DNA of 37,974 bases from Microcaldota archaeon (GTDB lineage: Archaea; Micrarchaeota; Micrarchaeia; Micrarchaeales; CABMGC01), in contig JAJZKW010000003.1 in assembly GCA_021803945.1 (NCBI GenBank), positions 1 through 37,974 on the forward strand. Direction: 5' to 3'. The notes beneath the pieces were generated by a model. The model was not told where the DNA came from, searched no databases, and saw nothing but the letters and a program-made list of their open reading frames with translations. Both the position numbers and the translations under genes were made by a program. Below are positions 4,443 to 22,321 of this stretch, piece after piece (position 1 is the stretch's first letter; the number at the start of each line of letters is the position of its first letter).

Positions 4443-7400
4443 CTACTTTTTATCTTTTCTGCGCCTTGAGGCCAGCCGCGCCTTCCTGTTCCTCAGGTAT
4501 CGGCTGTCGCGCATCAGGCCGTAGAGTATGATTATCGCTCCAAGTGCTATGATCGCCGGAAGCCCTACCTGGCCTATTGCAAGGGAGAGGGAGCCTATTA
4601 TTACGGACTGCGAACTGGATGCAGGTATCCAGCTGTAGTTCAGCGCGTTGAATGATATCGAACCTGAATTTGGATACGACGGGTTTGCCGATTCGGAGAG
4701 AGGCGCCTGATGCGCCAGTATTGGCTCCGGCCCTGGTGTGCCGTAATAACTGGCGAGTATCTGAGCGCTTCCGGCTCCGCAGGCGACTATATTGGCCCCG
4801 AAGTATCCGTTGGAGTCTGTCTTGTATATACCTATCAGCCCAAGCTGGGATGTGCAGATGCCTGTCCCGTTCTGAGGGTATATTACTGAGCAGTACTGCG
4901 TATTCCCAGATGGCAGAGCTGGGCAGGCGCTGGGCAGGCCTCCACCCGAATATATGTTGCAGAAAGTGTATATCTTGTTTTCAGGGGTGAGCAAGCTGTT
5001 TGGAGGTGGCGAGCATGCTCCTAGCCCGTTGAATGAAGGGCTGTATGTTACTATGTTTGCGCTCGTATAAGTAGGGCCCTGCAATCCGTTGTATACAGGA
5101 TTTGCGAGCTGGCAGGAGCTTGGATTTGGAGAGTTACCGAAGACGCAGTTTTCCGCGGCGAGGGGGTCTGTAACCGCATTGTACCCTATCGTATCAAGAT
5201 TGGCATCATAGTAAAGGTAGACATAGCCTCCCTTGAGAGGCACAGCGCTCGTGCTGGTTCGCGGAGCCCAGCTGAGCGTTCCGTTTATGGAGAGCTGTGT
5301 CTGATTGACATTTATCCCATTCACATTAGGGGTCACTTCTAGGGTCATATGCGTCCAGTTGGCTATATCTCCGTCTATAGGCATGTATATGAGATTGTTG
5401 AAGTTGTCATTGAATACGTATACAAGCCTGTGGTATCCGTAGACCTTGCCTGACTGCGAATAGATCCCGTTCATCGTCAGCATCAGGTTGTAATTGTTTA
5501 CCGGAAGCTTGTAGAAATTGAAAAGGGATACGACCATTGACTTCGTTGCAGCGAGCAAGAACCTGTTCTTTATTGGTGATATTCTATTGGCGTCTGCCAG
5601 TGGAGCTGCGCATGAGGGGCCGTAGCACGCAGGGTTCAGAGGGCTTGATGATATGAGTTGGTAGACAGGTGTTGAGCCCTGGGAGTATGATACGGCATTG
5701 AACGACAGCTGTGAGGTTGCGTTTATTATCTCCTGGTTGTTGGTCACTGCGTTCACTGTGCTGTTCACATATACATATCCTAAGGCCCTGTTCGTGAGAA
5801 GGTTGTATACTATCTCTGCAGGAAGCACTATGGAACTGAGATTTGCCTGGTAGAACGGCTGCGCACTTGTGCCGGATTCTGCGTATATGCTGGATTCGGC
5901 ATATGTATCTGAGCTCTCTACCTGGGCCTTTTGCGGATTCGAATTTGTAAGCGGAGAGGTCGTGTAGTTGTATATTGTATTTGATACTGCAACTGGGGTC
6001 TCGAGCTTTGCAAGCGCAGCAGGAGGGGACGAAGGGCAGGTATTAGGAGGCTGCTGCGGATTTGATACCGGCTGGATGTTTGAGACCCATATGTTGGTCT
6101 TATATGTAAATGAAAACGGCATCAGCGCATACCCTGATATTATGCTGTTCAGCGATGTCGCAGCCGAATATTGCAGGGGATTTGAGTTCTGATTCAGGTT
6201 GTTTATGTCCAATTTGCCTATTCCGGACGCCTGGGCGCTGAGTCCTGGGTTTGGCTCCTGCAGGTTTATGTTGGGCTCTGCCTGTCCCGATCCGCTTCCT
6301 CCTGAAAATACCGATGAGTAGATAGCTCCGATGGTTAAGGTCTTTATCCCTCCTATGTTCTCATCATATTGGAATGGGTTTGACACCGTATAGGTGGGCT
6401 GGGACAGGCTGGCTACGTTTTGGTCATAGCTGCATTTGCCGCCGTTGGCAACATCGTTCAGGGTACTGCTGGTGTAGCATATGTAATCTACGTTCGGAGT
6501 GAATGGGAGAAGGTTGGTGCCGCCTATCTGGCTTGTATAGTTCTGGGGGTTGAAGTTCACGAATATGAGCTCGTCGTAGTTTATATTTGCATCTGCGGAA
6601 GGTGCTTTAGTGTAAACGGCTTGCTGCTCAAACTTGCTGGGAGCAACTACGAGGTTATAGACCGCCTTGTTGGGTATTAAGATGTTAACCCTGTTGTTGA
6701 ATCCTACTGACATTGAGGCGCCGATTATATGAGATATCCTGCAGTCAATAAGAAAGGTGCATGATTCTGTCGAAAGTTCCGGTCCTATAGGAAGATAGCT
6801 GCCTTTGTAATCTGGGCCGGGCTGGAAGCATGGGGAACTGCCTGGCGGCGGAGATGGATTTCCTCCGCATAGATTCAGCGTTTCGCCTGGCTGGGGAGTC
6901 TGGGATGACTGAAACTCGTTGCTGGAAACATTTGCGCTTATCACCCATCCGAACGGCGGATATAGAAGTCCACTTGACTGTGTGTACTTATTCAGTTGTG
7001 TATTGCCATTTGAAGTATACCAAAGGTCATTGTAGTAAGTCGGCTGTATTGGCACATCGACTCCGCTGGAATTTATTATCCTGAGCATCAAAATGCCGAA
7101 TTTTATGCCTCCTACTGGAGTGGCAGTGCCAAAAAGTCCGCTAGTGCCTAACTGACCTGCTATCCCAGACCAATAATCCAGCACATAGATATATCCGTTG
7201 ACATCCTGTATCGAAAGAGGGTGATGGTAGTTGGTATTGTATCCCAGGCCTGGCCATTCTGCCTTATCTAGCTGGTCCTGCACGGTGTTAGCCGGAGTGT
7301 TTTTATTTAAAGTACACGAAGAAGCTGCGCCGTGGAATACCTGCGGGCAGTTGAACGGGGAAAGAGAAGAGGATTCCTCGTAATTACGGGCATCAGAAGC

Positions 7401-9923
7401 TGCCTGGTCTATTATGTTTTTCATTATCTGGTCAGGCTGCGTGTTTCCATTCACATTTATTCCATATAGCCCTCCGTTCTGGAAGTAGTCTATTATGTTT
7501 GCTGCTGGCGGGTTTGTGCTTGGGGATCCGCTCCCCGATTCTGATGATGCAGAGCTGTATAGCGCATTGTCGCTGGTGAAATTTAGGGATATAGCTGAAC
7601 TGTATGACAGGGAATTTGCGGTGAATACGGGCATAAGGCCTGAGTTGGGGTTAGCCAGAAATAGCAGACTGCCTGTCGGAGAAGCCGCTATCTCAGGCCA
7701 GTTCGTAGTGCTGCATACTGGAGTTGAAGAGATTGAAGATGAAACTGCAAGATTCGGGCATATCGGCGCTGATTGGTATTCTATGGGGCCGTTTCCTATT
7801 GTGTTGGTTATCTCCATGAGCCAGCCGTAATTGCCAGAGCCTTCGCCTGCAACAATGCTTGTCTGTACCGTTCCGGTTATGAAGACGTCGCCCAGCAAGT
7901 CCGTAGATATGTTAAGGGGCGTGAACTGAGAAAGAGAGACTTCTTTTGGAAGCGCCTGGGAGATCGAAGAGGATATTTGGGATGACTGTGATATGGGGAT
8001 TGTGCTTACAACGTAGACGGAGCGGCCCTGAAGCCCGATTACGTTTTGCCAATAGGTATTCCAGTTGGAATCGAATCCTGATTGGGTGTACGACTGTATT
8101 ACGCTGTTTGGCTGGTATGATGAGGTATTCTCGTATCCGCTTGGTATTACCTTGAGGATGTAGATGTTGTATTGGCTCGGCGCGCCCTGTGCCCCGCTGC
8201 TTCCCAATACGAAGATATAACCCTGGTTTGGCATTGCAGAAATAGAGATTGGAGTTATTTGTATTGGCCCTGAAGAAGATGCACTTGCTCCTATGGAACT
8301 CCAAGGCAGCGCATTTGTGCCGCTATCTGCCACTGGGCAGTTGTCTCCGCTAAATCCTTTAGGCATATATTGGCAGTAGGCGCCTATAACATCTCCGGCT
8401 GAAGGGTCGCCGTAGGTCTGCCAATAACAGAATGTACTTCCTGTAACTGGACCAGGGCAATTTGAAACTCCGAATGGGCTGGACCAATAATTGGTATATG
8501 CGCGGGCCCATGCCATGTCACAGGATGGATTGAACCACCAATTGCTAGATCCAGTGCCGCATGTTGATGGATTGTATCCAGTAAGGACGTCGCCGTTATT
8601 CTGCAATAATCCCGCTGGGCTCTTAGATGGACATGGATTGGCTCCGCCATAGCACGCCCCTGGATGGAAGGAGCTCTCTGCGTATGCAATCGACACTATT
8701 ATTTCTAATTGCGTACCCGAAAATCCCGCTTGTTGCGCGCACGCCGCTACTTGAGAAAAAGTCAATTGAGTTACTTGATCGCCCATATAATTCTGGTTAG
8801 GGCATGATCCTGCTGGACTTCCAGTTGTCTGGCCTGACGCAAGCAGGCCTATGGAGGTCTGCGGCGAGCTTAGATCCGCGCCTATCCCGTTGACTGTGTT
8901 GAAATATGCAAGGTTGCCGTTGTAATTCCCGAAGAAGAATCCCAGCGAGTTTATTGCGAACGGCTCTATCACGTTCTGCGGATTTATGAAGTTCTTGGGG
9001 CTGTATATGTCATACGAAAGGCCTATATTGAACTCGTTAGATGGATCTGGGTTGGTTATGTTCGCATTGTATACGAGATACGGAAGGAGGCCTATGTTTG
9101 TAGTATGGCTCCCTGCATCCAGAAACGGGAGATTGGAGTTTGCCATGCCCTCAAGCGTGGCTTTCGAGTTCAAGGTATATGTGTACTGGCAGGTATTGCC
9201 GTTTGAGGTGGAGAGATAAGTGTCTGACTGCGTCGCTGTGGAGGTGAGAGGGTGCGCGCTGTTCTGCTGGTTCAGGTATGAAAGGTCCGCATATCGCGCA
9301 TACCAAGTCCAGAGGCCCTGCTGCCCCTGAGGCTGAATCGGATTGAAGATGTATGAGTGCGTGCCGAACGCCGATGATATGAAATTTCCGCTTTGTGTAA
9401 CCACCTCCGGTGAGTATCCGAGGTTTATTATCTTGAGTGATACGGCATTGGAAAAGAAGAGCTCAGGCTGGGACAATGATACTGTAGGAAGCGAGGATCC
9501 AGGGCTCTGCAGGTAGTTTACAAAGGTGGCAGTGACGCTGAACGACGATCTGCTTGAGCCTGCCTGGCATAGGTTGCCTGCAATCTTCCAGAACCCGTAA
9601 TCTGCGGATGGAAGGAAAAGGAGCTGGCTCCAGCTTGATTCTGGCGTAGGGAACTGGGGGCATGTAAGCATGTAGATGGAGCTCTGCGCGTTCGAGTTGT
9701 ATACGGCGTTGGCAGGCGATGTTGGATATGCCTTCTGCCCGGACTGCGTTATCGGAGCGACTTCGGGCGGGTTTGAGTACGGCACGCTTACAGTCATGGA
9801 TGCCGGCTGAGAAGTTGAAGATGAAGGTATCTGGGAAGATGACTGTGGACTCGCAACGGACGACGCCAGGGAGGCTGCAACGAGTACTGAGAACATCAAT
9901 AACATTGCATAGTACTTGCGCAT
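4443..9923 (-). CDS. Giant membrane-anchored surface protein with a lysozyme-like domain
   Basis: A 1826-aa protein with an N-terminal signal peptide (MRKYYAMLLMFSVLVAAS, probable cleavage near residue 25). Most of the chain is extracellular, rich in Ser, Asn, Gln, Tyr, Pro and paired Cys, with many N-x-S/T sequons. A C-terminal membrane helix (about 1782-1804) precedes a 22-residue Arg/Lys tail. Residues about 382-522 resemble soluble lytic transglycosylase/lysozyme domains: FSQVAACAQQAGFSG, then IAYAESSFHPGA with candidate catalytic Glu416, SPAGLLQ, and a C-terminal part with CDMAWARAYTNYW and CYWQTYGDPSAG. The rest is not recognised. Its neighbour is aglB, and the sequons make it a plausible N-glycosylation substrate. 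A host or neighbour contact role is inference. Confidence 0.85.
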   Translation of the reverse strand: MRKYYAMLLMFSVLVAASLASSVASPQSSSQIPSSSTSQPASMTVSVPYSNPPEVAPITQSGQKAYPTSPANAVYNSNAQSSIYMLTCPQFPTPESSWSQLLFLPSADYGFWKIAGNLCQAGSSRSSFSVTATFVNYLQSPGSSLPTVSLSQPELFFSNAVSLKIINLGYSPEVVTQSGNFISSAFGTHSYIFNPIQPQGQQGLWTWYARYADLSYLNQQNSAHPLTSTATQSDTYLSTSNGNTCQYTYTLNSKATLEGMANSNLPFLDAGSHTTNIGLLPYLVYNANITNPDPSNEFNIGLSYDIYSPKNFINPQNVIEPFAINSLGFFFGNYNGNLAYFNTVNGIGADLSSPQTSIGLLASGQTTGSPAGSCPNQNYMGDQVTQLTFSQVAACAQQAGFSGTQLEIIVSIAYAESSFHPGACYGGANPCPSKSPAGLLQNNGDVLTGYNPSTCGTGSSNWWFNPSCDMAWARAYTNYWSSPFGVSNCPGPVTGSTFCYWQTYGDPSAGDVIGAYCQYMPKGFSGDNCPVADSGTNALPWSSIGASASSSGPIQITPISISAMPNQGYIFVLGSSGAQGAPSQYNIYILKVIPSGYENTSSYQPNSVIQSYTQSGFDSNWNTYWQNVIGLQGRSVYVVSTIPISQSSQISSSISQALPKEVSLSQFTPLNISTDLLGDVFITGTVQTSIVAGEGSGNYGWLMEITNTIGNGPIEYQSAPICPNLAVSSSISSTPVCSTTNWPEIAASPTGSLLFLANPNSGLMPVFTANSLSYSSAISLNFTSDNALYSSASSESGSGSPSTNPPAANIIDYFQNGGLYGINVNGNTQPDQIMKNIIDQAASDARNYEESSSLSPFNCPQVFHGAASSCTLNKNTPANTVQDQLDKAEWPGLGYNTNYHHPLSIQDVNGYIYVLDYWSGIAGQLGTSGLFGTATPVGGIKFGILMLRIINSSGVDVPIQPTYYNDLWYTSNGNTQLNKYTQSSGLLYPPFGWVISANVSSNEFQSSQTPQPGETLNLCGGNPSPPPGSSPCFQPGPDYKGSYLPIGPELSTESCTFLIDCRISHIIGASMSVGFNNRVNILIPNKAVYNLVVAPSKFEQQAVYTKAPSADANINYDELIFVNFNPQNYTSQIGGTNLLPFTPNVDYICYTSSTLNDVANGGKCSYDQNVASLSQPTYTVSNPFQYDENIGGIKTLTIGAIYSSVFSGGSGSGQAEPNINLQEPNPGLSAQASGIGKLDINNLNQNSNPLQYSAATSLNSIISGYALMPFSFTYKTNIWVSNIQPVSNPQQPPNTCPSSPPAALAKLETPVAVSNTIYNYTTSPLTNSNPQKAQVESSDTYAESSIYAESGTSAQPFYQANLSSIVLPAEIVYNLLTNRALGYVYVNSTVNAVTNNQEIINATSQLSFNAVSYSQGSTPVYQLISSSPLNPACYGPSCAAPLADANRISPIKNRFLLAATKSMVVSLFNFYKLPVNNYNLMLTMNGIYSQSGKVYGYHRLVYVFNDNFNNLIYMPIDGDIANWTHMTLEVTPNVNGINVNQTQLSINGTLSWAPRTSTSAVPLKGGYVYLYYDANLDTIGYNAVTDPLAAENCVFGNSPNPSSCQLANPVYNGLQGPTYTSANIVTYSPSFNGLGACSPPPNSLLTPENKIYTFCNIYSGGGLPSACPALPSGNTQYCSVIYPQNGTGICTSQLGLIGIYKTDSNGYFGANIVACGAGSAQILASYYGTPGPEPILAHQAPLSESANPSYPNSGSISFNALNYSWIPASSSQSVIIGSLSLAIGQVGLPAIIALGAIIILYGLMRDSRYLRNRKARLASRRRKDKK

Positions 9924-10051: not shown

Positions 10052-12700
10052 TCAACCGGTAGTGTTGTATATTATCTTGAAGATCTTGGTGTCAGAGTTT
10101 GCGAAGACCAGGCTAAGCCTTGCCTTGCTGTTGTCCCATGGGCAGGAGGCAGCGTTGCACATGAAGAGGAACTTGAGCATGTTGCTGTTGGCTATTCCAG
10201 GACCGAAGATGAATGCGCCTGTAAGGTTGATGAAGAACCCCCCGGGCCTTGGTATGCTTGAGTACTGGAGAAGGAGCAGATCACCGTTTGTCCTGTTGAA
10301 GTGTGCCTGCTGGTTTATCTGGCTGTAATTGTCGCTGTTCTGGTCCAGGAACCCAACATATGCAAAAGGTATTGACTGCGAGGGAGTGGCCTGCAGGTAG
10401 GCAAGTATCTGGTTGGCAGAATTGGAGGCGTTGGAATACCCTATGTTGACCACAGCATACGGATATGCGACAGAGCTGTTTACCTTAAGTACGAGCTGCT
10501 TCTCGGTGGCGTTTGGAGCGGATTCTGAGAATGACGTCAGCGGAGCGTATCCGAAAAGTGAGACGTTCTTTGTTATGTGGGCTTCGGTGTATATCCCCTG
10601 CGTCTCTATCATCCATGCGTTCCTTACAACGAGGTAGTTCGGGCTGCCGGTAAGTACGGGGTTTGTTAGGAACTGCGGGTCTGGGGAGCTGTTTAGGAGC
10701 CATGCGGCAAACGGGTCTGCCTTTGTGCTGTTCTGCGACCCAACGCTGTCTGTAACGCTTGTCCTGTTCGCTACGGCCTCAACCACCGATCCGTCCGGCC
10801 ACAATGTGAGGACAACGCTGTTGGATGGGGAATTTGACTTCAGCCACTGCATCGCGGCTATGAACTGGGGATTGATGCTGTCTGCCTGGACTAGCGATGA
10901 GGAGTACAGAGTGCCGTAATAGAGCAGGGAGAATAGGAGATATAGCAATACTGTTGCTGACAGCAGTATGACAACCGTGCTGTAGTCTCTTAAAAATTCC
11001 CTCATAAGCAACCACTCCAGAAGACTAAAGATTGCTGTGAGCAACAAGGTGATCAAGAGAAGCATGCCTGAACTTCCTGAAAATCCTGTTACCATCTCTT
11101 TGCTTATAAATATAAAAATGACCAAAAATGCAAAGAAGACTGCTGATCTATTCCTCCCTCTGGAAATGATAATATATGAAAAACACGCAAGCATCAGAGC
11201 AGAAACTATGGAAATGATTATCCCACCATATCCAAACATTAGCCCAAACATTAGCCCTCCAAGCCCGAAGGCAATACTGGAAAGTAATATCAAGAGATGG
11301 CGGGGTTTTTTATCTGTGACGTGTTTGGCTGCAAGTATTAGCCAGTATATCGTGTATGCGCTCATTATGGCCAAGGGTATCGAGAAGAGCGCGTTGAACC
11401 TTATGATGTGCATCTGGAGGTATCCTGTAACTATGAAGAAGGCCATTATTGCCAACATTGGAACAGCGACATCGAATTTCAATGCGGGCTTTCCACTCAG
11501 GAATCCTGGCCCGGAGTCATAGACATGCATGAACAAGTATGGTATGAACAGGAGGATGAGCGTGATCACCCCTATGACGCCGTAGAACGACAGCCATATG
11601 CCCTGCAGGTTGAAGTACAGGGTGAGGGACATGAAAAGGGTGGGGAGGGACGTGAACAGGTTGATCCCGAAGCTTGTGAACAGGAACTGGAAATTCGGAG
11701 GCTGTAGCTCCTGTATGGTTGACCCGAAAGACCCTGCTGCGCTGACGAATCCATTGCCTACGAATACGTTGTATATGAGGGTTGGCTCTGCCATGGCGAA
11801 GAGCGCAAGCCCTGCTACGACAACCGACAGCATTATGCCGGCCCTGTAGGCAGTTGTCCTGGTCAGGTCAGGCATCCTTGAAGATGCGAAGTTGACAAAG
11901 AGCCAGAGCACTGCAATGCTGAAGAGCAGTGGCAGGAAATATGAGAGACTCATGAGCTGCTGCACTGTTATTGTGCCAACTGCATGGGCGACTGAGACTA
12001 CTGCGAACCATGATAGCATAGAGACGAGAAGGTACTTGCTGTCGTCCATCATCTTCTCCTTCCTGAATATGAATGCGAATGACATTATGAATGCTGTAGT
12101 GAGAACAAAGACTACGAATCCGAACGGCCCTCCGTTCCATACGAGGTTGCAGAGGGATACCGCAACTCCTGCGGCGAGCGCGACGGCAAGCTTCCTGTTC
12201 CTGCCATCCTGCCTGAAGACCTCGATTAGGAGTATGAGGGCAATTAGGAGGAAGAGAGGCGCGAAGCTGTCTCCCCTGTATATCAGCGCGCTGGTCCTCG
12301 CCGCATTGCCCATGCTCAGAGCTATGAATAGGATCACCAGGACACCGAAGAGCTTGTCCTTGCTCACGTACCTTGAGAGTATGTATGCAAAGAGCATGTC
12401 AAGGAGGGCGTATGCGACAGGTATGAGCCTCATGACGGTGTAGAAGCTCACCCCGAAGTAACGTAGTATGGCGTACGGAAGCAGCGTGACCCAGTATATC
12501 CCGTGCGCCTCTCCTGTCGGGGCGCTGTGGGGCCATCCGGAAATGCTGAGATAAGGAGGCACGTGGAACCCGTCGTTCACGGCAGCGCGGACCACTGCGA
12601 AGTGATAGAAGCCGTCAGGCTCGTAGAAGCCGTAGTACTTGAGCATTGCAATCCTGAAATGCACTGCAAGGACTACGCCCAGTATTGCAAATATCACCAA
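10052..12700 (-). CDS. aglB: Oligosaccharyltransferase, STT3/AglB family
   Basis: An 882-aa membrane enzyme that transfers a lipid-linked glycan to Asn in N-x-S/T sequons outside the membrane. It has about 13 hydrophobic segments in the first 600 residues and a soluble C-terminal domain. The first external loop carries the metal-binding acidic motif (YEPDGFYHF). The C-terminal signature aligns with VVLSWWDYGYW but reads VVLTLWPDGSVVE (W634, D636, G637), a divergent WWDYG. The start is uncertain: TTG at 12700 leaves almost no residues before the first helix, while the frame stays open to a TAA at about 12764. CTG at 12739 would add 13 residues. No ATG or GTG precedes. Confidence 0.88.
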   Translation of the reverse strand: MVIFAILGVVLAVHFRIAMLKYYGFYEPDGFYHFAVVRAAVNDGFHVPPYLSISGWPHSAPTGEAHGIYWVTLLPYAILRYFGVSFYTVMRLIPVAYALLDMLFAYILSRYVSKDKLFGVLVILFIALSMGNAARTSALIYRGDSFAPLFLLIALILLIEVFRQDGRNRKLAVALAAGVAVSLCNLVWNGGPFGFVVFVLTTAFIMSFAFIFRKEKMMDDSKYLLVSMLSWFAVVSVAHAVGTITVQQLMSLSYFLPLLFSIAVLWLFVNFASSRMPDLTRTTAYRAGIMLSVVVAGLALFAMAEPTLIYNVFVGNGFVSAAGSFGSTIQELQPPNFQFLFTSFGINLFTSLPTLFMSLTLYFNLQGIWLSFYGVIGVITLILLFIPYLFMHVYDSGPGFLSGKPALKFDVAVPMLAIMAFFIVTGYLQMHIIRFNALFSIPLAIMSAYTIYWLILAAKHVTDKKPRHLLILLSSIAFGLGGLMFGLMFGYGGIIISIVSALMLACFSYIIISRGRNRSAVFFAFLVIFIFISKEMVTGFSGSSGMLLLITLLLTAIFSLLEWLLMREFLRDYSTVVILLSATVLLYLLFSLLYYGTLYSSSLVQADSINPQFIAAMQWLKSNSPSNSVVLTLWPDGSVVEAVANRTSVTDSVGSQNSTKADPFAAWLLNSSPDPQFLTNPVLTGSPNYLVVRNAWMIETQGIYTEAHITKNVSLFGYAPLTSFSESAPNATEKQLVLKVNSSVAYPYAVVNIGYSNASNSANQILAYLQATPSQSIPFAYVGFLDQNSDNYSQINQQAHFNRTNGDLLLLQYSSIPRPGGFFINLTGAFIFGPGIANSNMLKFLFMCNAASCPWDNSKARLSLVFANSDTKIFKIIYNTTG

Positions 12701-17920: not shown

Positions 17921-20900
17921 ATGAAGAAATTCAATACTACCGATGAGATAAAGATCCCTGAGAAGCTGGTGGACCAGGTAATAGGGCAGGAAAAAGCGGT
18001 AAACATAATAAAGAAGGCGGCCAGGCAGCACAGGAACGTCATGCTGATAGGAGAGCCTGGGTGCCTTATTTCAGATGAGAGGATATTCCTTGGCAACGGA
18101 GCCATAGCAAAGATAGGGGAATTGGGGAATGGGCATCTTGAGCCAATAAATGTAAAATTGATTATAGGCAGTGGCAACAAGACAGACACAGCAACGGTAT
18201 TCCATGCTTATAAAAACCAGCCGCTTGTCGAGATTATTACTGAAAGCGGAAAAAGCATAAAGGGTACATACAATCATCCGATATTGACTGCTGAACGCTC
18301 ATGGAAGAGGCTTGACGAGATAAAGGCGGGGGATCGGGTTGCGGTGGTCAGCGGAATAAGATGCACTATAACAGAGTATATCAAGTCCGGCTTCAAGCCA
18401 ATAAAACGGAATAGAAACGGCCCGAAATTCTGGGGAAGGCTACCTGAGAAAATAACTCCTGAGCTAGGGGCGCTATTTGGATATATTATTGGAGATGGAT
18501 GGGTAAACAAAAATAGGGAAGGGATTGGACTGGTAGTGTCAGATGATGAGAAGGAGATATTGCCGGTGCTAGCCTCCATTATAACAAGCAATTTTGGCGT
18601 AGAGCCCAGAATATACAGGAGGAAGCCTCGCCATGGCAGGAGTATGCCTCTGGACTATTTAGAGATAAACAACAAGGATGTCTACCATAATCTTAAATTC
18701 CTGGGGGAAAAGCGCGTACCGAATCTGATATTAATGTCGGGCAATGAAGTTGCATCGGAATTTATCAAGTGGCTTTTTACGGCTGATGGAACAGTATATG
18801 ACGGCGGTAGAGGGCGGAGGGGCATAAACTTGAAGTCTGTTAACTTGGAATTGCTCAGGGACGTGCAGATGATGCTTCTTAGATTTGGAATTCATTCCAG
18901 GATTTTAGGAATAAAAGCGCAAGGAATTAATAACGCACCGCAATTGGCAATAAGGCGCGGGTATGACATAATAAAATTCAAGGAAAAGATTGGATTTGCA
19001 TGCAAAAAAAAGATAAAGGACCTTGAAACCCTGGCGAAAGACGCTGAACGATTTGCAAGGGTCAGAAAACAGCGCAGCGAACGCGTTGTAGAAGTGATAA
19101 GGGGAGGCCGGGCAGACGTATTCGACGTTGAGGTGCCGGTTTCACATAGATTTATAGCCAATGGGATAGTGACGCACAACACAGGAAAGACCTTGCTTGC
19201 ACAGGCCATAGCCGAGCTCCTTCCCATAACGGAGCTTGAGGACGTCCTGGTGTACAGGAACGTCAACGACGAGAACCATCCTATAATAAAGAACGTGAAA
19301 ACTTACGACAAGGTTGAGCCTGGAAAGCCGCTTGGCGACGGGCAGGGGAGGCAGATAGTGCAGAAGGAGAAGATCAGGTCGAGGATAAACATCTCCAGCG
19401 GCAAGGGCAGCATAGTCACTCCGATAATAACTCTGCTGGTGATAGGCCTTGTCATAATATCGCTTACAGGCCTTATAGCGGGGTATGAGCTTGTGCTGTT
19501 CGGCGCGCTCATACTAGGCATACTTATATTCGGCTCCGTGATCATATTCGTGACAAGCTTCAGGAGGGCGGGAATACTCCCAGGAGCGTTTGACACCAAC
19601 GAGCCTAAGCTGATAGTGGACAACACTGGGATGACCCATGCGCCGTTTTACGACGGTACAGGGGCGCGGGCTGGCCATCTCTTCGGAGACGTCAAGCACG
19701 ATCCGTTGCAGTGCATCCCGAAGGGCGAAATGGTGCTTGCGCCCAATGGGAATCCGATCAATATAGAAAAATTGGTAGACAGTTATTTCCCGGGCGACTC
19801 TGAAGGCGAGATAAACGTCCCGGGAAGCGCAGGGCTCAAGGTGCTTGGAGGATATGATTCTGAGTTCAAGCTCTCTGCAGCTGCGGTGAGGAGGCTATAT
19901 AGAAGAAGATACAATGGAGATATTATACGAATAAAGACAAGGAACGGTAGCGTTATTCGGGTGACGCCAAATCATCCGATAGCGTTCATCGATGGGTCCG
20001 GAAGCGTGGACTACATCGAAGCAGGAGGGATATCAAGAGACACCCGCATAGTAATTCCATCAAGAATAAAGAACACGGCGACTAAGGAGATGGATGACAG
20101 CATGCTCATTTTCATAGCCGACCTCCTAGCAGACGGATACATGGGCCAGAGGCACATAGAGTTCAATCTGAAGAGGGATTTCAAGATACGCGAGATCACA
20201 GATGACATAAAGAAACTGGGGTATATACCTAAAATAAAGATAAGGCCGGACGGTGCGACATGCATACAGGTGAATTCGGTTGAGCTGTGCAGGACGCTGT
20301 TTGATATGGGGATAAAGGAGGGGAAGGCTAAGAGGATACCAGACCTGGTATTCGGGCAGGAGAAGCAGAAGATAGCATTGTTCCTATCGAGATTCATCGC
20401 AATAGATGGATATGTAAACAAGAGCGGTCAGTTTGAGATATTGAATCCTAAGGGCATGATAGAGCAGATACGCTCGTTGCTGTTCATACTTGGAATAAAT
20501 GCGAAGTACAGGACGCGGATAGACAGAGGGTATGGAAAGGAGAAGCGTACGATACAACACATACTCAGGTGGAATCATTTCGTATGGGCACAGGAGTATT
20601 ATTCGCATACCATAAATCCGATACATATTGACAACCTGAAAGTTTACCTAGCTGCCACTACATTCAACAAAGAGTGCTATAATGACATAGTGCCTGTCGG
20701 ATTTGGCACGCTTGACCGGATAAGGACGTCTTTCAGCATGTCAAAAGAGGCAGTTCACAGTGACTACTGGTCGGTCAATCCAGGTGTAAGGAACCATACA
20801 AACCTTACGCGCAGCCTGCTCAACAAGATAAACGACAGATTCGTAGAGGTAGGGGGATTGGATGATGACACCTTAAGGCTTAAGAAGCTCGGAGAGGGCG

Positions 20901-22321
20901 ATTACGCATCTGATGAAATAGTAGATATAGAGATCGAGAAATACGACGGGTTTGTGTATAATATGACAACGGAGACGGGGAACTATATGGTAAACTTCGT
21001 GCTTACCCATAATTCCGGCGGCCTGGGGACCCCGGCGCACCTAAGGGTGGAAGGCGGGCTGATACACAAGGCGAACAAGGGGGTGCTCTTCATAGACGAG
21101 GTTGCTGATATCGAGCCGAAGTCGCAGCAGGAGCTGCTCACTGCCATGCAGGAGAAGAGATACGCGATAACAGGTCAGAGCGAGATGAGCTCCGGAGCCC
21201 TCGTAAGGACGGAGCCTGTCCCATGCGACTTCCTGCTGGTTGCCGCAGGGAACCTCCAGGACATACCCAAGATGCATCCTGCGCTCAGATCTAGGATACG
21301 CGGATACGGATATGAGGTTTACATGGACTCCACGATGCCTGACACCGAGCAGAACAGGGAGAAGATAATAAGATTCATAGCGCAGGAGGTCAAGAAGGAC
21401 GGGAAGATACCTCCTTTCGGATATGAGGCCTGCATGGAGATAGTTGAAGAGGCAAGGAGGAGGAGCGGGAGGAAGGGAAAGCTCACGCTCATACTCAGGG
21501 AGCTCGGAGGCGCGATAAGGGCTGCAGGAGACATGGCGATCGAGAAGGGAAGGAAGACAGTGACAAGGGAGGACGTGATAGGCGCGCTGAGGATCACGTC
21601 TCCGATAGAGGCGCAGTTCGTTGAGCAGTCGCTGGAGTACAGGAAGGATTACAAGATATTCAAGACTTCAGGATACGCGATAGGGAGGGTGAACGGACTT
21701 GCGATAGTCGGGTCGTCGTACCTGTCTGCAGGCATAGTCCTGCCAATAGTCGCAGAGGTGACAAAGTCGAGCTCGAAGACCGAGGGCAAGCTCATACCTA
21801 CAGGGAAGCTCGGAAAGATAGCGAAGGAGGCTGTGAAGAACATAAGCGCGGTAATAAAGAGGCACATGAACAGGGACATGGCAAGCTATGACATACACGT
21901 CCAGTTCCTGCAGACCTACGAGGGAGTTGAGGGCGACAGCGCTAGCATATCCGTTGCAGTGGCAGTCATATCCGCGCTTGAAGGCATACCGGTAAGCCAG
22001 GAGGTGGCCATGACAGGCTCGCTCTCAGTGCGCGGAGACGTGCTTCCTGTCGGTGGGATAACGAACAAGGTAAGGGCTGCGATAGAGGCCGGGGTCGCAT
22101 ACGTGATAATACCGGAGAGCAATGCAAAGGACATATACATAGACAGCAAGGAGCTGAAGAAAGTCAAGATAATACCTGTCAGGAACATAGCGGAGGTCCT
22201 GCAGTACGCGCTCAAGAAGAGTCCGAGGAGGGACCAGATGGTCGGCAAGCTCAGGAAGTACATAACAAACGACTCGCGCGAAAGGGCTCCGCTTGTGCTC
22301 GAAGAGGCTGATGAAGAATGA
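17921..22321 (+). CDS. lonB: Membrane-anchored archaeal Lon protease with two inteins
   Basis: A 1466-aa precursor. Removing two inteins (residues 48-420 and 598-1031) leaves a 659-aa LonB, the usual archaeal size. The AAA+ domain starts DQVIGQEKAV; Walker A GEPG-TGKT is split by intein 1, Walker B is VLFIDEV (Asp1059-Glu1060). Two membrane helices (about 498-520 and 522-546) are inserted in the AAA+ domain, typical of LonB. The C-terminal protease domain has the catalytic dyad Ser1340 (EGDSAS) and Lys1383 (GGITNK). It degrades misfolded proteins at the membrane. The stop overlaps the top6A start by 4 nt. Confidence 0.95.
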   Translation: MKKFNTTDEIKIPEKLVDQVIGQEKAVNIIKKAARQHRNVMLIGEPGCLISDERIFLGNGAIAKIGELGNGHLEPINVKLIIGSGNKTDTATVFHAYKNQPLVEIITESGKSIKGTYNHPILTAERSWKRLDEIKAGDRVAVVSGIRCTITEYIKSGFKPIKRNRNGPKFWGRLPEKITPELGALFGYIIGDGWVNKNREGIGLVVSDDEKEILPVLASIITSNFGVEPRIYRRKPRHGRSMPLDYLEINNKDVYHNLKFLGEKRVPNLILMSGNEVASEFIKWLFTADGTVYDGGRGRRGINLKSVNLELLRDVQMMLLRFGIHSRILGIKAQGINNAPQLAIRRGYDIIKFKEKIGFACKKKIKDLETLAKDAERFARVRKQRSERVVEVIRGGRADVFDVEVPVSHRFIANGIVTHNTGKTLLAQAIAELLPITELEDVLVYRNVNDENHPIIKNVKTYDKVEPGKPLGDGQGRQIVQKEKIRSRINISSGKGSIVTPIITLLVIGLVIISLTGLIAGYELVLFGALILGILIFGSVIIFVTSFRRAGILPGAFDTNEPKLIVDNTGMTHAPFYDGTGARAGHLFGDVKHDPLQCIPKGEMVLAPNGNPINIEKLVDSYFPGDSEGEINVPGSAGLKVLGGYDSEFKLSAAAVRRLYRRRYNGDIIRIKTRNGSVIRVTPNHPIAFIDGSGSVDYIEAGGISRDTRIVIPSRIKNTATKEMDDSMLIFIADLLADGYMGQRHIEFNLKRDFKIREITDDIKKLGYIPKIKIRPDGATCIQVNSVELCRTLFDMGIKEGKAKRIPDLVFGQEKQKIALFLSRFIAIDGYVNKSGQFEILNPKGMIEQIRSLLFILGINAKYRTRIDRGYGKEKRTIQHILRWNHFVWAQEYYSHTINPIHIDNLKVYLAATTFNKECYNDIVPVGFGTLDRIRTSFSMSKEAVHSDYWSVNPGVRNHTNLTRSLLNKINDRFVEVGGLDDDTLRLKKLGEGDYASDEIVDIEIEKYDGFVYNMTTETGNYMVNFVLTHNSGGLGTPAHLRVEGGLIHKANKGVLFIDEVADIEPKSQQELLTAMQEKRYAITGQSEMSSGALVRTEPVPCDFLLVAAGNLQDIPKMHPALRSRIRGYGYEVYMDSTMPDTEQNREKIIRFIAQEVKKDGKIPPFGYEACMEIVEEARRRSGRKGKLTLILRELGGAIRAAGDMAIEKGRKTVTREDVIGALRITSPIEAQFVEQSLEYRKDYKIFKTSGYAIGRVNGLAIVGSSYLSAGIVLPIVAEVTKSSSKTEGKLIPTGKLGKIAKEAVKNISAVIKRHMNRDMASYDIHVQFLQTYEGVEGDSASISVAVAVISALEGIPVSQEVAMTGSLSVRGDVLPVGGITNKVRAAIEAGVAYVIIPESNAKDIYIDSKELKKVKIIPVRNIAEVLQYALKKSPRRDQMVGKLRKYITNDSRERAPLVLEEADEE
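18062..19180 (+). mobile_element. Intein 1 of LonB, with LAGLIDADG endonuclease
   Basis: 373 aa. It starts at Cys48 (CLISDERIFL) and ends VTHN, with Thr421 as the +1 residue. It sits between the Gly and Thr of the P-loop (GEPG^TGKT). Block B is GTYNHPILT and block F FDVEVPVSHRFIANG. Two dodecapeptide motifs (LFGYIIGDGWV and FIKWLFTADGTV) mark a DOD homing endonuclease; both carry the acidic residue, so it may be active. It looks more AT-rich than the flanking exteins, consistent with transfer. Confidence 0.95.
19712..21013 (+). mobile_element. Intein 2 of LonB, with LAGLIDADG endonuclease
   Basis: 434 aa. It starts at Cys598 (CIPKGEMVLAPNG) and ends VLTHN, with Ser1032 as the +1 residue, inserted KHDPLQ^SGGLGTPAH. 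Block B is VTPNHPIAFID and block F YDGFVYNMTTETGNYMV. Endonuclease motifs FIADLLADGYM and FLSRFIAIDGYV are intact. Splicing residues (Cys1, block B His, His-Asn, Ser+1) are all present. Confidence 0.95.

Follow-up and report, generated by a model that had tools for sequence, protein, structure and literature searches.

A lysozyme-like domain in an exchangeable slot of a giant, predicted surface-anchored protein of Micrarchaeota

The giant gene and its neighborhood

The window considered here, the whole 37,974-nucleotide stretch of DNA that was analyzed, belongs to a genome assembly of 0.9 Mb in 26 contigs. It contains a gene for a protein of 1826 amino acids, which lies on the minus strand, a point on which the original prediction was silent. 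The features of this gene and its upstream neighbor, each with the basis for its assignment, are as follows:

4443..9923, minus strand: giant surface protein gene (scaffold plus inserted module), 1826 aa (open reading frame and translation)
9852..9923, minus strand: signal peptide region, residues 1-24 (hydropathy peak at residues 6-24, and sequence)
8901..9461, minus strand: UP, the conserved scaffold block 5' of the slot, residues 155-341 (iterated profile)
8253..8900, minus strand: module slot 1, residues 342-557, 216 aa (boundaries of the UP and DN blocks)
8334..8804, minus strand: SLT_3-type lysozyme-like domain, residues ~374-530 (Pfam PF18896, PDB profile hits, AF2 with Foldseek, alignment)
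8676..8678, minus strand: codon of Glu416, the catalytic-position Glu at a helix end (conservation and lysozyme C alignment)
8601..8612, minus strand: GLLQ motif, residues 438-441 (alignment)
8361..8432, minus strand: C-terminal motif FCYWQTYG...GAYCQYMP, residues 498-521; compare phage PWSTYTSGAYLRYM (alignment)
7857..8252, minus strand: DN, the conserved scaffold block after the slot, residues 558-689, starting with the GYIFVLG strand (iterated profile)
4449..7283, minus strand: conserved C-terminal part of the scaffold, residues 881-1825 (profile coverage in relatives)
4512..4604, minus strand: C-terminal transmembrane anchor, approximately residues 1774-1804, followed by a basic tail (hydropathy and sequence)
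10052..12700, minus strand: STT3/AglB-like oligosaccharyltransferase, directly upstream of the giant gene (TIGR04154)

Both a signal peptide and a C-terminal anchor had been proposed for this protein, and both are present, as a hydropathy peak at approximately residues 6-24 and a transmembrane segment at approximately residues 1774-1804. This combination of N-terminal hydrophobic signal and C-terminal membrane segment supports the accompanying proposal that the protein faces outward, and we regard it as a membrane-anchored scaffold that is probably exposed at the cell surface in vivo.

The neighboring oligosaccharyltransferase-like protein matched the NCBIfam model TIGR04154 (E=2e-16, below the curated cut-off) and had no match in Pfam; at least 11 relatives have a homologue of it on the same DNA stretch as the gene for the giant protein. 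The surrounding genes are otherwise of an archaeal housekeeping kind, encoding RFC, topoisomerase I, a tRNA methyltransferase, LonB and the A subunit of Topo VI. The LonB-type protease gene (17921-22321, plus strand) contains an intein with a LAGLIDADG endonuclease domain.

A lysozyme-like domain of the SLT_3 type

Judged from its sequence and that of its homologues, the region of residues ~374-530 is a lysozyme-superfamily domain of the SLT_3 type. The motifs on which a lysozyme- or transglycosylase-like identity had originally been proposed were all recovered in their predicted places: AESSFHPGA, which holds Glu416; SPAGLLQ, with GLLQ at residues 438-441; and CYWQTYGDPSAG, starting at residue 499. 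The isolated window domain scored 23.7 bits (E=6.7e-5) against Pfam SLT_3 (PF18896), below the curated cut-off of 27 and over model positions 2-50 of 89 only, a result that supports a relation to SLT_3 but on which we do not claim formal membership for the window protein. When a family profile was used, the whole domain, including the WxTY and GAY elements at its end, was aligned to a full-length SLT_3 phage protein. The underlying alignment comprised 16 domains (that of the window and 15 from other genomes) and was later enlarged to 20. SLT_3 was matched by 14 of the 16 (best E-value 2.3e-9), SLT weakly by five and Phage_lysozyme2 by four. Of the 301 genomes that represent the class, 22 were found to carry the SLT_3-like domain; Pfam SLT (PF01464) gave no match in the window domain or elsewhere in its genome.

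Searched against the PDB, the family profile reached lysozyme C at E=7e-4 with 16 sequences and at 6e-6 with 20, and the PDB profile matches listed consisted of lysozymes and lytic transglycosylases, along with a lysozyme-like sperm protein. The single window domain sequence had no match in PHROGs or the PDB, and viral contigs scanned with it yielded no relative. A Pfam DUF5807 match (E=0.02) was taken as chance. The lysozyme-type match itself might likewise be ascribed to compositional chance in a surface protein rich in Ser, Asn and Gly, an explanation to which the single-sequence Pfam score, lying below the curated cut-off, lends some color; however, six shuffles of the window domain gave no match to SLT_3, SLT or Phage_lysozyme2, 14 of the 16 relatives match, and the profile reaches both lysozymes and SLT_3 phage proteins. 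We consider chance refuted by these controls, with next to no probability remaining to it.

Glu416 was invariant in all 16 and then in all 20 aligned family members, whose mean column identity is approximately 31%. Also invariant in these 20 divergent sequences are Ser417, the Gly of GLLQ, Trp501, Cys517 and Pro521; the last residue of GLLQ varies, three relatives having Gly there instead of Gln. In the alignment with lysozyme C, Glu416 pairs with the catalytic Glu (in ...YESNFN...), in agreement with the expectation that it occupies the catalytic position and is conserved in relatives. The position of lysozyme C Asp52 is taken by Pro436 in the window, so that the second carboxylate of GH22 is absent; the domain is therefore not filed as GH22, and a single-Glu mechanism of the GH23 kind would be expected.

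Predicted structure and phage relatives

AlphaFold (AF2) models of the domain had pTM values of 0.77 for the window and 0.83 for a relative, L026. The original prediction had proposed a comparison of such a model with lysozyme structures, and for L026 each of the Foldseek matches at ranks 1-41 in the PDB was a lysozyme, a lytic transglycosylase or another related enzyme of the lysozyme fold, although the best individual E-value was 0.04 and thus not significant singly. Against BFVD, the same model matched three viral models at E-values of 1e-3 or lower, and the entry lysozyme of Rhodococcus phage Toil was among the matches listed. The window model gave weaker matches of the same kind, and its helix 37-51 ends at Glu416. 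The models thus predict a lysozyme-superfamily fold whose first core helix terminates at the catalytic-position Glu and, together with Pfam SLT_3 and the PDB profile matches, support the identity first proposed.

The family profile matched RickRoss gp27, a tectivirus virion transglycosylase and genuine SLT_3 member, at E=4e-15. By tblastn, the transglycosylases of Streptomyces tectiviruses were reached at E=5e-6 from one family member and at 0.3 from the window domain alone. Virion-associated transglycosylases of this virus group are the closest named phage relatives (PMC6950372).

The scaffold and its slots

A search with residues 560-1826 of the giant protein (1267 aa) found a counterpart in 106 of the 195 related Micrarchaeota genomes, and an iterated profile placed the UP block in nearly all giants whose contig covers the region. 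The UP and DN blocks are separated by 34-71 aa in 13 relatives that have no insert, compared to 216 aa in the window. A second insertion point, slot 2, lies just past the GYIFVLG strand with which DN opens and is empty in the window; in L026, this strand matched the SBBP beta-propeller repeat near the cut-off. Insertion of the domain at random positions was considered and rejected, as most carriers hold it between the same two blocks and slot-2 fillers follow GYIFVLG.

Of the scaffold proteins examined, approximately half lack a recognized lysozyme-type module, indicating that the module is not essential to the scaffold. An early view that these relatives simply have no such function was replaced, as part of them hold other hydrolases in the slot. 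Three relatives that lack hydrolase modules have PKD domains, InlB-like repeats, or Ig/DUF445 regions in place of them in the N-terminal half. In one genome (G106), a second, divergent giant scaffold copy with an SLT module is encoded on contig C8, in addition to the giant of contig C3, which shows that a genome need not have a single copy.

Modules in relatives and their exchange

Several hydrolase families were found in the slots of relatives at scores above the Pfam cut-offs. Phage_lysozyme2 occurs in four genomes (E-values 3e-15, 3e-12, 5e-17 and 2e-15), and NlpC/P60 in four others (4e-16, 6e-17, 2e-9 and 1e-9); SLT/GH23 occurs in one genome, in its close relative, and in one giant of G106 (1e-10 and 2e-16). 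The NlpC/P60 modules keep the active-site Cys and His in all four cases, have endopeptidases of the RipA/RipB type as their nearest NCBI models, and resemble phage tail proteins (phrog_329, 7e-21). M23-like modules were also detected in slots, weakly, below the Pfam cut-off and without the usual metal ligands, which suggests that at least some modules may only bind. Families are combined in some genomes: Phage_lysozyme2 and an SLT_3-like domain stand adjacent to each other in one, a second holds SLT_3-like, SLT and M23-like modules, and a third holds two SLT_3-like domains and one NlpC/P60. In a further genome, the SLT_3-like domain has its own frame of 270 aa.

On a tree of the scaffold only, the slot states require at least 14 changes, and the window's own genus, with 11 members, accounts for five of these; the tree set contained 25 proteins with and 24 without a module, a ratio that is not a frequency estimate, as the carriers were partly hand-picked. 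Bacterial contamination was rejected as a source of the modules, because they lie within open frames that are otherwise Micrarchaeota scaffold and because the window has RFC, Topo VI and LonB.

Some slot fillers were unrecognised by Pfam and PHROGs, namely those of two relatives (residues 307-650 in one, 327-862 in the other) and the slot-2 fillers of four more. By eye they look like further wall-lytic domains (of 'YGFPWEYVF' and 'NPL' types); they may resemble wall glucosaminidase or tape-measure lysozyme domains, and they are uncounted here. Stand-alone proteins of these families exist as well: nine SLT (GH23) proteins of approximately 260-360 aa from seven genomes of the same order, and NlpC/P60 frames in two Micrarchaeota genomes.

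Probable function

The reading that we favor, and that we hold to be somewhat probable, is that the anchored scaffold carries an active peptidoglycan-cutting module in a loop slot and directs it at bacterial walls. In the window, this module would be the SLT_3-type lytic transglycosylase/lysozyme domain, with Glu416 as the putative catalytic acid on the MurNAc-GlcNAc glycan strand; the wall of a bacterium touching the cell would be breached locally, so that the cell could attach to, feed on or kill it, in the way in which virion entry lysozymes breach it for phages. To our knowledge, Micrarchaeota do not make peptidoglycan, so the substrate is most likely a bacterial wall. Further, several unrelated wall-hydrolase families alternate in one outward socket, a pattern best explained by selection for cutting peptidoglycan, and this alternation favors a functional wall hydrolase with bacteria as its target over a relic. 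A structural relic, one of the options first raised for the domain, is thus disfavored, both by a Glu that stays invariant at such low identity and by the refilling of the slot with independent peptidoglycan-hydrolase families. The other option, a surface glycan of another cell, is probably right, but the evidence favors bacterial peptidoglycan over an archaeal glycan. Counting against the favored reading are the score of the window domain alone, just under the Pfam cut-off, and the best Foldseek E-value in the PDB of 0.04. The main evidence against a bacterial target comes from what is known of partners: the hosts named for cultured Micrarchaeota are Thermoplasmatales, archaea that have no wall (PMC5498576, PMC8975820), and for DPANN in acid mine drainage, co-abundance points to Thermoplasmatota (PMC12153355). 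Bacteria as secondary prey, competitors or hosts are still compatible with these data. That the source organism is an episymbiont, and that the protein serves in feeding, we infer only.

These same hosts, archaea without peptidoglycan, make it conceivable that the modules cleave non-bacterial glycans, such as the S-layer or N-glycans of an archaeal host, biofilm polysaccharide, or the organism's own N-glycosylated envelope; the giant gene adjoins an STT3/AglB-like oligosaccharyltransferase gene, and co-culture alters the glycans of the host biofilm (PMC8975820). However, all recognized enzymatic modules in the slots belong to wall-hydrolase families, no other glycosidase family having been seen there, and the glycosidases alternate or combine with NlpC/P60 and M23-like peptidases, whose usual substrates are the peptide stems of peptidoglycan; we consider such a target unlikely. 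A catalytically dead module, acting as a glycan-binding adhesin, would account for the loss of the GLLQ Gln in three relatives, for the M23-like partners that have no metal ligands, and for the missing Asp at the Asp52 place of lysozyme C. The last of these points carries less weight given that GH23-type enzymes normally work with a single catalytic Glu, and with Glu416 and the next Ser invariant in 20 of 20 divergent sequences, and Cys and His retained by the NlpC/P60 partners, we view a dead adhesin as rather improbable. Bacterial secretion systems and pili use dedicated transglycosylases, and the scaffold is widespread in the order, so the domain might conceivably remodel the cell's own surface (pili, vesicles or division) with no target on other cells; but the organism is not known to have peptidoglycan, and close relatives differ strongly in whether they have a module and in its type, which is unlike a housekeeping function, leaving this explanation very doubtful.

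More tentatively, and with somewhat less than an even chance of being correct, we postulate that the common Micrarchaeota scaffold offers a socket that lineages refill with transglycosylase, phage-tail lysozyme, NlpC/P60 and M23-like modules to match the walls of different bacterial partners or prey. In that case, symbionts known mainly from wall-less archaea would also be contact predators or episymbionts of bacteria, equipped with modules of phage-lysin type. Micrarchaeota are now read as episymbionts of Thermoplasmatales, and swappable wall hydrolases point to bacteria as targets, partners or competitors. The modular design would place lysins of the phage-tail kind on an archaeal cell surface, and the modules of the scaffold offer a directly testable handle on contact with bacteria.

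Comparison with known systems

A literature search found no report of such proteins for Micrarchaeota, nor of hydrolase modules that are swapped on a common scaffold. In other archaea, secreted peptidoglycan hydrolases have been demonstrated experimentally to kill bacteria (PMC12352652), and they share with the modules described here an archaeal origin and bacterial peptidoglycan as the target; a word search of the main text of that paper found no Micrarchaeota, SLT or lysozyme. Large extracellular proteins with murein transglycosylase domains occur in Pacearchaeota and Woesearchaeota and were read as a sign of bacterial episymbiosis (Castelle 2021, PMC8204110). As described in the excerpted text of that report, they are like the giant protein in their very large size, extracellular position and DPANN origin, in having a wall-lytic domain and in their proposed action on bacterial walls, but they belong to another phylum and carry a murein-like transglycosylase domain; the excerpt mentions neither a slot for interchangeable modules nor peptidase partners. 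Woesearchaeota also have GH23 transglycosylase genes (Vigneron et al. 2022, PMC9723730), which likewise encode wall-lytic enzymes of DPANN and were read as predation on bacteria, but these are large GH23 enzymes, unlike a module held in the slot of a conserved scaffold. SPEARE and the giant surface proteins of nanohaloarchaea (PMC6642349, PMC10266531), to go by the excerpted accounts, are also giant, anchored DPANN proteins with a proposed role in host contact; in place of a wall hydrolase they have Ig-like and VirB4/TraG-like ATPase domains.

The nearest likenesses to the module are viral. SLT_3 entry lysozymes or virion transglycosylases are found in the actinobacterial tectiviruses WheeHeim, Forthebois, RickRoss and Toil and in Rhodococcus phage P19, and they have a common order with the window domain: a helix, AES(S) with the Glu, G-x-x-Q, NP..N/C..A, WxTY and GAYxxYM. 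The phage proteins are virion proteins of approximately 210 aa, whereas the window domain is Cys-rich and spliced into an archaeal scaffold of 1826 aa. Phage tail-tip and tape-measure lysins also combine Phage_lysozyme2, SLT, NlpC/P60 and M23 domains on a large structural protein; the Micrarchaeota modules, in contrast, are carried by the cell, on a scaffold that is predicted to be anchored in its membrane.
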